DNA of 64,000 bases from Acidobacteria bacterium Ga0077534 (GTDB lineage Bacteria; Acidobacteriota; Blastocatellia; Pyrinomonadales; Pyrinomonadaceae): positions 62,001-126,000 of the forward strand of contig LNEI01000011.1 in assembly GCA_001464455.1 (NCBI GenBank), given 5' to 3'. A program made the position numbers and the translations under genes. This document shows, in pieces, positions 47,910-56,527 of this stretch (position 1 is its first letter; each line of letters begins with the position of its first letter). The notes under the pieces were generated by a model. The model searched no databases, was not told the DNA's origin, and saw only the letters and a program-made list of their open reading frames with translations.

Positions 47910-48836
47910 TCAGTTTCGATCTACATCGATTCCAAAAAACTCAACGAAATTTCTGGTGGTGGCGCTTGCAAGAGTCGAAAGATCAATTCCGTAGAAATCG
48001 GCGAGAAAGGTAGCCGTATGAACAACAAACGCCGGCTCATTGCGTTTTCCACGAAACGGCACGGGCGTTAAAAACGGGCAATCGGTCTCGATCAGCAGTC
48101 GGTCTAGCGGAACAACGCGAGCCGAGTCGCGAAGATTCTCCGCCTTTTTGAACGTCACGTTCCCCGCAAATGAGATCATAAAGCCGATCTTAATCAGTGC
48201 TTCAGCCATCGCGGGCGTACCGCCGAAACAATGCATGATGCCAGGAGCGCGGACACTCTTGTCCGCATGAGCGTCGCTTCGACGCGAAAATTCACTCACA
48301 CCACGATCTTCGTTCTGGCCAGCAAAATCTGACGCGACATCTTGTCTGAACGCCGAAGCGGCGTCCATGCGGACAGGAGTGTCCGAGCTCCTTCCGTACT
48401 CCTCCGTCAATATCTCAACCGTCTCATCATCAGCATCACGGCTGTGAATTATCACTTGCAGCCCAAGCGACTTCGCAACGCGGATCTGCCGCCGAAAAAC
48501 ATCCCGCTGCACATCACGCGGCGAATGATCGTAATAATAATCCAGCCCGATCTCGCCCCAAGCGATCACCTTCTCGCTCTTTGTCAGCTCTGTTAAGTGC
48601 TCCTCCGCCGCGTCGTCGTACAACTTCGCATCATGCGGATGAACCCCGACAGCCGCATAAACGTTGTCGTATTTCTCCGCAACAGCCACCGCCCGCCGAA
48701 AATCGTCCGTACGCGGATCGCCGGTCCCAATATTCAACATCGCCACAACCCCAGCCTCCCGAGCCCGCCGAACAACCTCGTCGCGATCCTCGTCAAACTG
48801 TTCTCCGTCTATGTGGCAGTGGGAATCGATGAACAT
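47910..48836 (-). CDS. tatD: TatD-family metal-dependent DNase with in-frame repeat insert
   Basis: 308 aa against about 255-260 for the family. Metal ligands are visible: FIDSHCHID at the N-terminus, GEIGLDYYY (Glu), VIIHSRDAD, GIMHCFGG, and IETDCPFLTP. The 3' phosphodiesterase/TIM barrel is interrupted at residues ~148-197 by about 50 residues encoded by a palindromic element (48244-48391), between EEYGRSS and GIMHCF. The ATG directly follows the stop of the upstream lipoprotein gene. The insert falls before a catalytic His loop and keeps the frame, so the protein may still fold. Confidence 0.92.
   Translation of the reverse strand: MFIDSHCHIDGEQFDEDRDEVVRRAREAGVVAMLNIGTGDPRTDDFRRAVAVAEKYDNVYAAVGVHPHDAKLYDDAAEEHLTELTKSEKVIAWGEIGLDYYYDHSPRDVQRDVFRRQIRVAKSLGLQVIIHSRDADDETVEILTEEYGRSSDTPVRMDAASAFRQDVASDFAGQNEDRGVSEFSRRSDAHADKSVRAPGIMHCFGGTPAMAEALIKIGFMISFAGNVTFKKAENLRDSARVVPLDRLLIETDCPFLTPVPFRGKRNEPAFVVHTATFLADFYGIDLSTLASATTRNFVEFFGIDVDRN
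48244..48391. repeat. 148-bp palindromic element inserted in frame in tatD
   Basis: The ends are 26-bp inverted repeats (48244-48269 and 48366-48391, two mismatches) containing GGACACTCTTGTCCGC. Inner arms also pair (GCGTCGCTTC / CGAAGCGGCG). The translated core ADKSVRAP/SSDTPVRMD recurs in altered form in argS. This is a MITE-like element domesticated within an ORF. Confidence 0.75.
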
Positions 48837-49643: not shown

Positions 49644-49908
49644 ATCTTCTAGCTTCTTTTGGCGTAGCTAACCTCGCACTAATTATTCTTATCGTATCAT
49701 TTTCTCGCTCGGTGAAACTCACCATTAAGAGCCGGTTCTGATCTGAATGTCCGAAAATTGCATTCCGTTTTTCCTCATACGAATGTTCGTCATCATCGAA
49801 TATGCGAGCAAGAGGATCGCCAAAAACCGTTTCCGCTTCTTCAAACGTCACACCATCGTGATTCTTGATGTTGGCAGCCGCTTTTATTGGATCCGCGTCA
49901 AAATTCAT
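49627..49908 (-). CDS. BrnT-family toxin
   Basis: 93 aa. The BrnT signature is clear: FDADPIKAAANIKNHDGVTF then EEAETVFGD, and the C-terminal RIISARLATPKEARRYAN. BrnT has a RelE-like fold and cleaves RNA; toxin-first order is normal for brnTA. The gene abuts metG (its ATG and the metG stop meet at 49908). The pair lies within a run of housekeeping genes. Confidence 0.88.
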   Translation of the reverse strand: MNFDADPIKAAANIKNHDGVTFEEAETVFGDPLARIFDDDEHSYEEKRNAIFGHSDQNRLLMVSFTERENDTIRIISARLATPKEARRYANQT

Positions 49909-52025
49909 TACTTCAGCCGAGCTCCGATCCCAACGTCTTCGATAAATGCCGCCAACGCCGGTTTCGGCCCAGAATTATCTTCTAAAGAGGCGGCGCAGAT
50001 CATGCCTTGGGATTCGAGGCCGCGCATCATTCGGGGTTTTAGGTTGGCGACGACGACGACTTTGCGACCGATGAGGGTTTCGGGGTCGTAGTATTCGGCG
50101 AGGCCGGCGAGGATCTGACGGGGCTTCTCTTCGCCGAGGTCGATCTCGAAACGAAGCAGTTTGTCGGCCTTTGGAATGCGTTCCGCCACCTTGATCTCGC
50201 CGACACGGAGTTCGACTTTTAGGAAATCATCTATTGTGATGAAAGATTCGTCGATTGATGGTTGATCGTTGATCGTTGTGGGTTGAGTCGGGACTTCCCC
50301 ACCCGCTACCGCAGGTGGTACTGACTCTTTCTCGACCGCCGATTTTTCACTGCTTACTGCTGACTGCTCACTAATTTCACTCATAACTTTTTTCTTATCA
50401 ATTCTAGGGAAAACACCAATCGTTTCGCCGATCTTGGTTCCGGCGGCGAGTTCACCCCATTTTAGACTTGCCGGGTCGAGCGTGGCGATGTCTTCGCTGA
50501 GGCCGATCTGGCTATGGATCTTTTTCGTTGCTTCGGGCATTACGGGATAAAGCTGGACGCACAGCCAGCGAAGCGTTTCGCAGGCTCGATAGAGGACAGC
50601 ATTGAGCGTCTCAACCTGTTTATCGTCTTTAATTAGCTCCCACGGCTTCGAGTCGGATATTAACTTATCGACACGGGCGATCACCGTCCAAGTGGACTCA
50701 AGGGCGAGGCTAAAATCGAAATTGTCGTACCTGCGGATAAACTCGTCTCGAGCGTGCTCGACCACCGATGCGAGTTCCTGATCATCAGGGTTGACACCCG
50801 CCCGTTTCGCGTTGAGATAGTTCTCTTCCGCGATCTTTCTACTTGGAATTAGGCCTTCGCGATACTTGGTGATCATCGAAAACGTTCGGCTGGCGAGGTT
50901 GCCGAGGCCGCTGGCGAGATCGGCGTTGGCACGGTCGATCAGGTTTTCATAACCGAACTTTCCGTCCTGCCCAAACACCATATCGCGAAGCACAAAGTAA
51001 CGTATCGCATCGACCTGAAAATGCTCATGTAACACATCGACTTCGATCACATTTCCCAAGGTTTTACCCATTTTCCGGCCATCAGCATCGAGCCACATGC
51101 CGTGAGCAAATACCGTTTTTGGTAGCGACAATCCGGCGGCATGGAGGAACGAGAACCAATACACCGTATGGAACCGCAAGATGTCCTTGCCAACGAGGTG
51201 CGTGACATTCTGCCAATACTTCTCAAATCCGACTGAAGCCTTTTCTGCATTCCCGTAACCTAGCGCCGTAATGTAGTTTGTCAGGGCGTCCATCCAGACG
51301 TACATCACATGATTCTCATCGCCCGGGACAGGAATTCCCCACGATACCGAAGACTTCTGCCGACTGATCGACAGGTCCTGTAGGCCGCCCCGAACAAATG
51401 ACAAAACTTCGTTCTTCCTGCCTTCCGGTCTAACCAGATTCGGGTCGCTCTCGATCAGATCGATCAAAAATTCGTCATAGTCCGACAGCCGAAAGAAGTA
51501 GCTTTCCTCTGCAACCTTGTCGAGCGGGCGTTCGTGGATCAGACACAACCGAATGTCTGAGCCCTCGGGCGTGTAATATTGATCTTCATTCTTAAACTCG
51601 GCACATGGAGCACAGAACAGGCCTTCGTAGAAGCCTTTGTAGATCGCGTCATTCCCTTTCGGCGTCTGATTCTTGGCAATTTCCTGCCACAAATGCTGAA
51701 CGCCTTCGTAGTGAAACGGCTCAGTCGTCCGCATGAAGATATCATAACCGCCATTCTCACCATCGAGCCCAAAATCATGAAACATACGCTTCAGCTCGCC
51801 CGCGATCAGATCGACCTGCTCCTGCGGCGTCCGGCCATTCTTTTCAGCCGCACGTTGAATGTTGATGCCATGCTCGTCCGTTCCCGTCAGAAAATAGGTA
51901 TCAAACCCACGCTGTTTCTTGTACCGCCGGACAGCATCCGCCACGATTGTTGTGTACAGATGACCCAGATGCGGCAGGCTGTTCGCGTAGTAGATCGGGG
52001 TTGTTATGTAGAAAGTGTTGTTCAT
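49908..52025 (-). CDS. metG: Methionyl-tRNA synthetase
   Basis: 705 aa. The class I signature is HLGH (residues ~20-23) and KMGKT (about 317) replaces KMSKS. A zinc-knuckle remnant is CAPC…C. After the anticodon domain comes a C-terminal tRNA-binding (EMAP-like) domain (~595-705: VELRVGEIKVAERIPKADKL, VANLKPRMMRG). Between them, residues ~544-588 are built from dispersed repeats (SEQSAVSSEKSAV, PPAVAGGEVP, TTINDQPSI). The stop overlaps the toxin start, and the ATG overlaps the M28 peptidase stop by 4 bp. Confidence 0.95.
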   Translation of the reverse strand: MNNTFYITTPIYYANSLPHLGHLYTTIVADAVRRYKKQRGFDTYFLTGTDEHGINIQRAAEKNGRTPQEQVDLIAGELKRMFHDFGLDGENGGYDIFMRTTEPFHYEGVQHLWQEIAKNQTPKGNDAIYKGFYEGLFCAPCAEFKNEDQYYTPEGSDIRLCLIHERPLDKVAEESYFFRLSDYDEFLIDLIESDPNLVRPEGRKNEVLSFVRGGLQDLSISRQKSSVSWGIPVPGDENHVMYVWMDALTNYITALGYGNAEKASVGFEKYWQNVTHLVGKDILRFHTVYWFSFLHAAGLSLPKTVFAHGMWLDADGRKMGKTLGNVIEVDVLHEHFQVDAIRYFVLRDMVFGQDGKFGYENLIDRANADLASGLGNLASRTFSMITKYREGLIPSRKIAEENYLNAKRAGVNPDDQELASVVEHARDEFIRRYDNFDFSLALESTWTVIARVDKLISDSKPWELIKDDKQVETLNAVLYRACETLRWLCVQLYPVMPEATKKIHSQIGLSEDIATLDPASLKWGELAAGTKIGETIGVFPRIDKKKVMSEISEQSAVSSEKSAVEKESVPPAVAGGEVPTQPTTINDQPSIDESFITIDDFLKVELRVGEIKVAERIPKADKLLRFEIDLGEEKPRQILAGLAEYYDPETLIGRKVVVVANLKPRMMRGLESQGMICAASLEDNSGPKPALAAFIEDVGIGARLK
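50251..50371. repeat. Three nested dispersed repeats in frame within metG
   Basis: Going rightward: GATTGATGGTTGATCGTTGA-type repeat (50253 on), a CCCACCCGCTACCGCAGGTG-type palindrome (50297-50325, the PPAxAGG family), and a CACTGCTTACTGCTGACTGC repeat (50348 on). They fill the linker between the anticodon and tRNA-binding domains. Confidence 0.65.
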
Positions 52026-54430: not shown

Positions 54431-56527
54431 ATGACTATCTCAGATATCCAATCACAACTCCGCGAAGCGGTTCGAGAGACTGCCTTAGCCCACTTCGGCG
54501 TCGCACCAGACTTGATCGCCGTCGAAACTCCGCCGAAGACCGAACTGGGCGATGTCGCTTTCCCGGTCGCGTTTGAACTCGCAAAAAAGGTAAAGGAAGC
54601 TACCGGCGAAAAGCAGAACCCGCGCGCGATCGCCGAGGTTTTACGGGCAAGACTTGAGGAGTTTGAATTTGTGGGCCATGTCGAGATCGCAGGGCCGGGC
54701 TATCTGAACGTCTTTTTTGACCGTACGAAATTCCTCGTCGAGAACGCAGGTGCAAACCCGTTTCCTTCTCGCGGAGCGAACCTCGCGAAGGTCTGCGTCG
54801 AACACACCTCGGTTAACCCGAACAAAGCGGCTCATATTGGACATGTTCGAAATTCCGTGCTCGGGGACACCTTCCAACGGATCCTGACCGCAACGGGCAA
54901 GCAGGTCGAAGTCCAGAATTATATTGACAATACCGGCGTCCAGGTTGCCGACGTGGTGGTCGGGTTCATGTTCATGTTGAACATGAATCTTGACGATATA
55001 AAAGCTCTGGATAAAGAGCTTTCTGCCGCAGGTAAATCGTTCGATTATTATTGCTGGGACCTTTATGCGCAGGTCGGGCAGGCGTACAAGGCGGAACCCC
55101 CAGCGTCAGCGGGCGGCCAGGAATATGGTGATGATAAGCCGCTGATAGAAAGGCGGGCGGAAGTTCTGCACCTCATCGAAGAAGGCAATAACCCGACCGC
55201 AGAACTAGCCGATTACGTCGCCACCCGAAACGTTCAGTGCATTACCGACACAATGGAACGCTTGTCGATACGCTACGACCTGCTTCCGCGTGAGAGCGAG
55301 ATATTGCATCTTCATTTCTGGGACAAGGCTTTCGAGGAAATGAAACGCCTCGGCGTTATCCATTATGTCGAAGAAGGTGCACACGCAGGATGCTGGGTTA
55401 TGCCCTGGGAATCGCACGAGGGCAACGATGACAACGAAGCCGACAAGATCCTCGTAAGGTCAAACGGAACAGTTACTTACACTGGTAAGGACATCGCTTA
55501 TCAGATGTGGAAGCTTGGCATCCTCGGGCTTGATTTTAATTATAGGCTCTTCCACACCTACGCCGACGGCAAAGAAGTTTGGATGACCATGGGGAGCTCG
55601 GACGCTCCCGCTTCGTCGTCGAGAGATGCTCTCGCCGGAGGAACCGGCGATGCGGACAAGAGTGTCCGCCCTCCGTTCGGCGGTGGAGAGACGATCTACA
55701 ACGTCATCGACACACGCCAGTCGTATCCGCAAGAAGTTGTAAAAAAAGGGGTTGCGGCGATATCGCCGGAACGTGGCGAAAAGGCGAGCGTCCACCTTGC
55801 ATACGAAATGGTGGCGCTGTCGCCATCGGCAGCAGAGGAACTCGGTTTCGAGCTGAGCGAAGACGACAAAAAACGGACTTTTATCGAAATGAGCGGCCGC
55901 AAAGGCCTCGGCGTCAAAGCCGATGACCTGATCGACCGGCTTGAAGCGAAAGCACTAGCGGAGGTCGAGTCGCGGCACGCCGACGAGACCGACGACGAAA
56001 AACGCCACATCGCACACCAACTCGCTGTCGGTGCACTGCGGTATTTCCTGCTCAAATTTACAAAAAATACCGTGATCGTATTCGACTTCGAAGAAGCACT
56101 CTCCTTCGAAGGTGAAACCGGCTGTTTCTGCCAGTACTCTGCCGTTCGAGCGAATTCTATTTTTCGAAAACTCGACGAAAGCAACAACGTAGAGGCATCG
56201 GAACAAAAGCTGCGTGCGGCCGAACCAGCCGAGATCGACGCTATCCTCAACGGTGAGCCCGGCAACGACATCTGGTCGATGGCCATCCTCGCTTCCCGTC
56301 TCGACGAAGCCGTCCATCAAGCCGCCGCCGCCAACGAGCCCGCGATCCTAGCCAAATACTCATTCACGCTCGCCAAGGCCTTTAACCTGTTCTATCACAA
56401 CAATAAGATCATCGCGGAAAAGGACGATACGAAACGAGCCATCCTCGTCGTCGTAGCCGATATGGCCCGCAGAGCCTTGACCGAATCCCTCGCGACGCTC
56501 GGGATCGAGGTGCCGGAGAAGATGTAG
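54431..56527 (+). CDS. argS: Arginyl-tRNA synthetase with two in-frame repeat inserts
   Basis: 698 aa, longer than the ~550-590 usual. The Add-1 domain is followed by VNPNKAAHIGHVRNSVLGDT (HIGH at ~134) and the catalytic domain, then the DALR anticodon domain. Residues ~222-230 (EPPASAGGQ) and ~388-419 (SSDAPASSSRDALAGGTGDA … DKSVRPPFGGG) are encoded by dispersed repeats, the second related to the tatD insert. The class-I core is otherwise continuous up to the terminal DALR helices. Divergent from folE. Confidence 0.95.
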   Translation: MTISDIQSQLREAVRETALAHFGVAPDLIAVETPPKTELGDVAFPVAFELAKKVKEATGEKQNPRAIAEVLRARLEEFEFVGHVEIAGPGYLNVFFDRTKFLVENAGANPFPSRGANLAKVCVEHTSVNPNKAAHIGHVRNSVLGDTFQRILTATGKQVEVQNYIDNTGVQVADVVVGFMFMLNMNLDDIKALDKELSAAGKSFDYYCWDLYAQVGQAYKAEPPASAGGQEYGDDKPLIERRAEVLHLIEEGNNPTAELADYVATRNVQCITDTMERLSIRYDLLPRESEILHLHFWDKAFEEMKRLGVIHYVEEGAHAGCWVMPWESHEGNDDNEADKILVRSNGTVTYTGKDIAYQMWKLGILGLDFNYRLFHTYADGKEVWMTMGSSDAPASSSRDALAGGTGDADKSVRPPFGGGETIYNVIDTRQSYPQEVVKKGVAAISPERGEKASVHLAYEMVALSPSAAEELGFELSEDDKKRTFIEMSGRKGLGVKADDLIDRLEAKALAEVESRHADETDDEKRHIAHQLAVGALRYFLLKFTKNTVIVFDFEEALSFEGETGCFCQYSAVRANSIFRKLDESNNVEASEQKLRAAEPAEIDAILNGEPGNDIWSMAILASRLDEAVHQAAAANEPAILAKYSFTLAKAFNLFYHNNKIIAEKDDTKRAILVVVADMARRALTESLATLGIEVPEKM
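55594..55687. repeat. Palindromic element in frame within argS
   Basis: GGAGCTCGGACGCTCCCGC at the left and GCGGACAAGAGTGTCCGCCC at the right are relatives of the 26-bp ends of the tatD element. The encoded DADKSVRPP parallels HADKSVRAP in TatD. A smaller PPASAGG-type repeat is at 55096-55120. Confidence 0.65.

Follow-up and report, generated by a model that had tools for sequence, protein, structure and literature searches.

REP-associated tyrosine transposases (RAYTs) are HUH/tyrosine single-strand transposases of the class of the IS200/IS605 TnpA. The REPINs of Pseudomonas fluorescens SBW25, RAYT-linked and present in many copies, consist of an inverted pair of short hairpins with a spacer and are nearly all extragenic, 14 of the 16-mers (1,067 occurrences together) overlapping genes (PMC3116915). 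REPs within open reading frames have been described from several species, including Opitutus terrae and Rickettsia conorii, as have the palindromic elements (RPEs) of Rickettsia (PMC3733652). According to that report, intragenic dimers of GTAG/CGTC REPs are in frame and add 20-30 residues, loops and linkers being suggested as neutral places for them, and the TAG of GTAG ends is often the stop codon of the flanking reading frames. In RAYT subclass 2.4, REPs inside tnpAREP itself keep the reading frame, unexpectedly long proteins having been discarded in that study (PMC6006769). A REP survey also tabulates Acidobacteriota (PMC12306157).

The window analysed here, a stretch of 64,000 nucleotides from Acidobacteria bacterium Ga0077534 (Pyrinomonadaceae), carries within tatD a 148-bp element (48244-48391, no strand assigned). 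An earlier note had called it a MITE-like palindrome, and its coordinates were exact: two REP ends start and stop there. The 23-bp REP end, GGAGCGCGGACACTCYTGTCCGC, is present twice in inverted orientation, on the left as the exact 23-mer common to relatives (GGAG-CG-CGGACA-CTCT-TGTCCG-C; 48244-48266, plus strand) and on the right as the opposite-strand 23-mer with one mismatch (GGAGCTCGGACACTCCTGTCCGC; 48369-48391, minus strand). The strand folds into one long hairpin of -83.5 kcal/mol (200 shuffles: -55.3, sd 3.9; z -7.3; 0/200 as low), the inverted arms (48243-48284 and 48351-48392) being 42 nt each and 86% complementary. Two self-complementary stretches read from the sequence, GCGTCG-CTT-CGACGC adjoining the left REP (48271-48285) and ACGCCG-AAG-CGGCGT adjoining the right (48350-48364), neither with an assigned strand, could form inner hairpins; the best fold instead pairs the two arms with each other. 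When the core hairpin pattern was searched with its loop sequence fixed and up to two mismatches, the window held 4 occurrences versus 0.41 expected, 2 of them being the tatD element itself. A second, shorter family copy, its left end decayed as judged by eye (55593-55674, plus strand), lies in frame inside a 702-aa open frame (GSSDAPASSSRDALAGGTGDADKSVRPP). The element is thus palindromic and MITE-like, but it is better placed with the REPINs because of its tagged hairpin ends and linked RAYT. Inverted REP hairpins with a short spacer recur in 85 pairs of less than 200 bp, and the conserved 5' tag beside the hairpin is GGAG (GGAA or GGAC in some species), not the classical GTAG. Location sets the family apart from the extragenic REPINs of SBW25: here, 67 of 88 pairs lie inside reading frames (PMC3116915).

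On the minus strand, the tatD open reading frame (47910-48836, 308 aa; PF01026, with Pfam TatD_DNase spanning residues 2-301; NCBIfam TIGR00010 above cut-off in two stretches) continues through the element, which reads in frame as RSSDTPVRMDAASAF...SRRSDAHADKSVRAP, as had been claimed. PDB 2gzx aligns to the protein as two blocks interrupted at the insert, where 2 residues stand instead. A TatD match at E<=1e-40 was found in 39 of the 41 genomes of the genus, and 30 loci, from 30 of these 39 genomes, were aligned. The loop measures 53 residues in the own genome and 8 in the shortest relatives, so the extra loop is real, with a net gain of 45 residues where "about 50" had been given. The insert also lies, in sequence, next to a catalytic loop, as the same source proposed, since it stops just before GIMHCFGG with its invariant histidine; the flanking residues, including His201 of MHCFGG, are invariant in 9/9 aligned TatD proteins of the genus. 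Some of these invariant residues are presumably catalytic metal ligands of TatD. The structure predicted from the window sequence alone was rejected for its mean pLDDT of 42.4. A search of viral contigs for TatD relatives found none.

Sorted by pattern and by eye, the 30 TatD loops comprise 4 with a recognisable element (own genome, G038, G010 and G026), 4 with a remnant, 7 with an unrelated repeat (type TADG...QPSAIS or similar), 5 of middle size and 10 short ones. The earlier note would have given up its case had the extra residues turned up in the TatD of distant species with unrelated DNA, and on this point the alignment is mixed, 7/30 proteins of the genus holding an unrelated repeat in the very same loop. 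These repeats do not undo the element finding, because the element is a genome-wide family; they mark the TatD loop as permissive, taking more than one kind of insert. The coding repeats at L086, L088, L090-L093 and L097 (type SSQLTADGCNLESSYQPSAISYEP) represent a second kind of in-frame repeat in the genus. On a TatD tree whose bootstrap is not fully settled, built without L093 (a truncated frame, and one of the seven loci with an unrelated repeat), the presence of the element takes 4 changes, at least 3 of them forced by starred branches, which can be gains or losses; presence labels shuffled on the tree gave a mean of 3.8 changes, no more scattered than the actual 4. G010 is placed between G019 and G031, both of which carry another repeat. 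As the tree reads, the element came or went several times in the TatD loop, and repeated independent entry is likely, one gain with several losses fitting as well. A single old insertion without later change is ruled out by the four changes.

The earlier note had proposed a genome-wide search for the repeat end, and the element is indeed not unique: the own genome holds 14 family places at E<0.004, made up of 10 pairs, 8 of them in frame, and 4 single-ended copies, 3 of them in frame and 1 at a frame break. That last copy (L024, G000:C19:52120), a lone REP end where the surrounding gene shifts frame, is one of few damaging copies. Six further host proteins of the own genome were assigned by Pfam to GidA/TrmFO, glycosyl hydrolase 92, aldehyde dehydrogenase, cobalamin methionine synthase, molybdopterin oxidoreductase and pyridine-nucleotide oxidoreductase. 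With one mismatch allowed, 35 of 147 genomes carry the 23-bp end; 33 of these are among the 41 of the genus (own genome included), and the others are G052, from another genus of the family, and G099 with one match; a reversed-pattern control gave 0 matches in all 147. Named matches to the exact 23-mer, among those listed, came from Acidobacteria (Pyrinomonadaceae/Blastocatellia) and, surprisingly, also from Verrucomicrobiota and one Phycisphaeraceae MAG; sorted by title and taxonomy, at least 112 stretches carry it (80 Verrucomicrobiota/PVC, 5 Phycisphaeraceae, 27 others). Sites are shared between species, as in the GH92 gene, where 8 census rows fall at one site, and the spacers at one shared site differ between species. 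Use of one site in several species, common here, was noted for recB in the work on GTAG/CGTC REPs (PMC3733652). A copy present in G010 is absent at the equivalent place in G019, the flanks there being 89-92% identical.

For the frame census, the 299 REP ends listed gave the 85 complete pairs, a further 129 ends being unpaired at the 200-bp stringency and left out. Pair lengths are 1 modulo 3 in 62/85, 2 in 16 and 0 in 7 (binomial p 1.5e-13 against 1/3, a value which, like the other p-values given here, overstates independence because copies share sites by descent). Classification covered 88 pairs, namely 78 from relatives (3 of them from G052), 7 strict pairs of the own genome and 3 more of its pairs that carry additional mismatches; matches in G005, G007, G013, G027, G028, G034, G037 and G099, and 3 of the 21 in G004, lie outside it. 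A strict codon-model test on 180-bp flanks called 54 pairs in frame and 2 frameshifted, placed 2 on different strands and left 30 unclear. A second test, which relied on the open frame and on flanks of greater length, accepted 53 of these 54 and added 13, giving 66/88 alone and 67/88 by either test; 2 pairs look frameshifted and 19 did not pass, 15 with fewer than 25 open codons on one side and 4 with a weak coding signal, although one of the latter (L294) is in frame within its 790-aa gene. A rough clustering, which splits a few true sites, sorts the 54 strict in-frame copies into about 31 site groups. In these copies the right REP end is read in one frame, ADKSVR-like, in 54/54, and for the left end reading gave 45 SADTPVR-like and 9 RTLLSA-like copies (the automated count of 46 and 8 misread row L226), the third left-end frame, with a cysteine, being used in 0/54. 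The 23-bp REP is stop-free in all six frames. The bias argues for selection rather than targeting, since under any mechanism a copy has to be in frame to survive inside a gene, and translation of the inserts would be the simplest reading of the open in-register frames, the fixed frame choice and the low dN/dS (below).

With its own-trained model, the same second test found 7/34 pairs in frame in Verrucomicrobiota, 0/2 in Phycisphaeraceae and 15/19 at named acidobacterial loci; the contrast between 15/19 and 7/34 (Fisher p 8.7e-5) compares a partial Verrucomicrobiota sample with acidobacterial loci that partly duplicate copies among the 88. A stronger contrast (Fisher p 2.5e-8) was set aside as it compared unequal tests.

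Which transposase might serve the family was sought among Y1_Tnp loci. The own genome has 10 of these, one family copy lying about 1.2 kb from one of them, and a family REP adjoins 0/10, which speaks against an own-genome RAYT as direct partner; the own-genome copies could be fossil, or could rely on a RAYT in trans. A stand-alone RAYT of the own genome (L050, about 1130-1875, G000:C17) is flanked by a related REP, GGAGCGCGGGCATCCTGCCCGC, and forms its own REPtron. Elsewhere, a RAYT flanked by the same REP was found in G019 (L161, stand-alone), in Verrucomicrobiota and in the embedded RAYTs of the six genomes scanned. Five Verrucomicrobiota RAYT relatives were seen, all stand-alone in frames of 203-251 aa, and the same REP flanks four of them (L121, L151, L197 and L200; not L187). 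A RAYT is the likely mobiliser of the family.

Some of these RAYTs lie inside host genes. Among 77 listed Y1_Tnp matches in 8 relatives, 72 stand in frames of at most 329 aa; the remaining 5, of which G010, G038, G022, G004 and G032 each have one, stand in frames of 959-1064 aa. The embedded RAYT sits between REP ends in one continuous frame, without a stop codon of its own, and in G004 and G032 whole REPINs stand on both sides of it. Its host is an acetate-CoA-ligase-like gene in G010, G038, G023 and G022 and priA in G004 and G032; further ligase-like hosts were found in G026, G035, G003, G017 and G036, their flanking ends, which have diverged, being judged by eye from the peptides, so that 11 species carry an embedded RAYT (9 ligase-like, one doubtful, and 2 priA). 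In the 5 fusions scanned with Pfam, host domains flank Y1_Tnp on both sides: the RAYT splits the AMP-binding domain in G010 and G038, lies between ACAS_N and AMP-binding in G022, and in PriA stands between the 3'-DNA-binding domain and the helicase. The NCBIfam RAYT model NF047646 exceeded its cut-off in the G004 fusion and in two RAYTs of the own genome. When the G010 domain was searched against the 41 genomes of the genus, 45 matches were found in 27 genomes; 11 of them, at least 56% identical, lie in frames of 826-1064 aa (969 aa in G026, an assembly of 2 contigs), except one of 361 aa at a contig end, and the other 34 in frames of 98-346 aa. Of 26 stand-alone domains examined, 24 end 2-14 codons past the domain and 2 have an internal stop; 10 of the 11 embedded domains continue for more than 300 codons and one for 61 codons to the contig end.

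The embedded RAYTs appear to be one lineage that evolves as protein. All 11 fall on one side of a branch with 96/96 support in a tree of 35 domains, from 35 of the 45 matched loci and without L372 and L363 (internal stop). HUH and Tyr-region motifs are present in 11/11, with no stops, and the NP pattern in 10/11, G023 reading YIENHPV; the domain matches PDB 4er8 (E 1.2e-8), and its motifs NH[AV]H / WQ / YI..NPV are close to the NH[IFV]H / WQ / YIxNNP of subclass 2.4 (PMC6006769). In that subclass the REP lies inside the transposase gene, whereas here the transposase lies inside the host gene (PMC6006769). Purifying selection is seen in the two pairs in which dN/dS was measurable, at 0.089 for G003/G017 (dS 1.05) and 0.039 for G032/G004 (dS 2.1, near saturation), three other pairs being saturated. 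In the same pairs (L351/L352 and L354/L355), the RAYT shows more synonymous change than the host sequence beside it (pS 0.565 vs 0.424 and 0.704 vs 0.353), which hints that the RAYT is exchanged or replaced in place more often than its host. The ligase-like gene, followed by a 185-residue C-terminal segment, is single copy with 82-100% identity in 12/12 genomes, and each of these also has a paralogue (40-46%, 651-675 aa), so the gene might be dispensable; for priA, each of 6/6 genomes, both carriers included, gave one match. A stand-alone ancestry with later embedding is the likely direction of change, because the Verrucomicrobiota and G019 RAYTs stand alone, on a tree whose root is not fixed. 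In the own genome, the ligase-like gene (L375, G000:C18:311000-314500, about 440-2799) carries a REPIN at one site; where relatives have their RAYT it shows another insert that resembles a palindrome, NSPPYEGGVAPA...NHPVGE..PPLLRKE, and behind this insert the frame is broken (553 + 283 aa).

We consider it probable that the tatD insert is a REPIN of a GGAG-tagged Pyrinomonadaceae REP family, mobilised by a RAYT and kept in frame by selection, with the RAYT itself embedded in one lineage. The RAYT would carry the hairpin pair to new sites, by copying or by moving it, and transposition, from what is known of TnpA-REP, would involve single-strand cutting at the tag. A copy with a net length that is a multiple of three adds about 18-60 residues, and the gene is not killed because the REP end is free of stops; selection would retain those that sit in permissive loops and are read in a tolerated frame. 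The transposase of one lineage would obey the same rule, a REP-flanked, stopless RAYT being kept in frame with a ligase-like enzyme or PriA; the fusions would be translated and their hosts would remain active. The chances seem about even that a RAYT lineage lacking its own stop codon now persists by being translated within housekeeping enzymes, its family's REPINs meanwhile spreading through the proteome as in-frame loops.

A quieter history is a tenable alternative, though one towards which we incline less: an old REPIN could have been trapped in a tolerant loop, where it is inherited and decays, immobile and without a role, the frame bias being mere survivorship. The want of a cognate RAYT adjoining the family in the own genome would fit, as would the remnants in 4/30 TatD loops, the existence of single-ended copies and a history of one gain and several losses, which also yields four changes on the TatD tree; yet the TatD copies stand at four separate places of that tree, two of them beside short-looped relatives, close relatives differ in presence (G010 versus G019), and the spacers vary at one site between species. 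It is unlikely, in our estimate, that copies land in frame by design, through a transposase that targets a motif of fixed codon phase. The single frame of the right end and the two frames of the left, as well as the many shared sites such as the one in the GH92 gene, are what directed insertion would produce. However, no common target motif was readable at the empty sites of relatives, and no target-site duplication was evident at those read (relatives there being about 71-92% identical); selection explains the frame choice equally, because the unused frames would bring cysteine or more hydrophobic residues into the loop.

The element could also be taken out at the RNA or protein level, in the manner of an intron, an intein or a bypass, leaving a normal enzyme; its strong hairpin fold might be read this way, and so might the priA of two genomes, which contains a 185-aa domain as well as in-frame REPINs. 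We regard removal as highly improbable, given that 67/88 copies keep the frame open and in register, which would be unneeded, that no intein family appears in the Pfam lists of 6 proteins or in the best 25 NCBIfam rows per protein, and that the RAYT domain evolves as protein. The least probable reading, to which we give hardly any credence, is that chimaeric assembly, or the chance loss of a stop codon in single assemblies, produced the RAYT fusions. The genomes are draft assemblies, and the G036 fusion is a doubtful case, either a deletion between sites or a misassembly: on its contig (L348, G036:C390) the left flank comes from one ligase-gene site and the right flank from a different one, and the same gene also stands as a 705-aa frame on another contig, C223. 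Against chimaeras as a general explanation, the fusions occur in eleven species, several with few contigs (2 in G026, 7 in G022, 20 in G038), form one clade and have dN/dS far below 1 in two pairs.

Like the intragenic GTAG/CGTC REPs, the present family has dimers that read in frame and would add residues to the host; it differs in that its tag, GGAG, is stop-free in every frame, intragenic copies are the majority and the transposase itself is embedded (PMC3733652). The comparison with Rickettsia that had been drawn holds for behaviour, since in-frame coding palindromes in unrelated genes are found in both, RPEs being likened here by their description as cited in PMC3733652; the phylum is different, and the accessible part of that paper names no RAYT as partner of RPEs. 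The earlier note knew of no such element described for this group, and none is reported for this family among the literature matches listed, although in-frame REPs have been published for other bacteria (PMC3733652, PMC6006769). In-frame REPs as such are therefore already known, while a complete RAYT that shares one frame with its host gene is apparently new, on the weak evidence that no report of one is among the matches listed, which cover subscription journals thinly. REPs were named for their extragenic location, and here one REP end lies mostly outside frames in the sampled loci of one phylum and mostly in frame in those of another, so that natural pairs are available for testing what allows a mobile element into coding sequence. 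In the embedded clade, which shows no trace of splicing, central enzymes seem to keep a transposase in frame, and opportunities to observe a mobile element inserting a domain are rare; if this lifestyle is real, the transposase is produced when its host gene is translated, and only a precise event could excise or lose the element without harm to the host. Odd loops of about 18-60 residues in acidobacterial genomes, and transposases annotated there as over-long "fused" proteins, may also be explained by the family.

Further repeats were noted in the window and elsewhere in the own genome. A sister family is represented by a related REP that forms a 67-bp inverted pair, GGAACGCGGACATCCTTGTCCGC (L034 1495-1561; G000:C16, about 89795-89849). 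Within the window, a 705-aa frame on the minus strand (49908-52025), by its look presumably a methionyl-tRNA synthetase, contains a repeat-like linker, SEQSAVSSEKSAVEKESVPPAVAGGEVP, which is perhaps a further in-frame insert.
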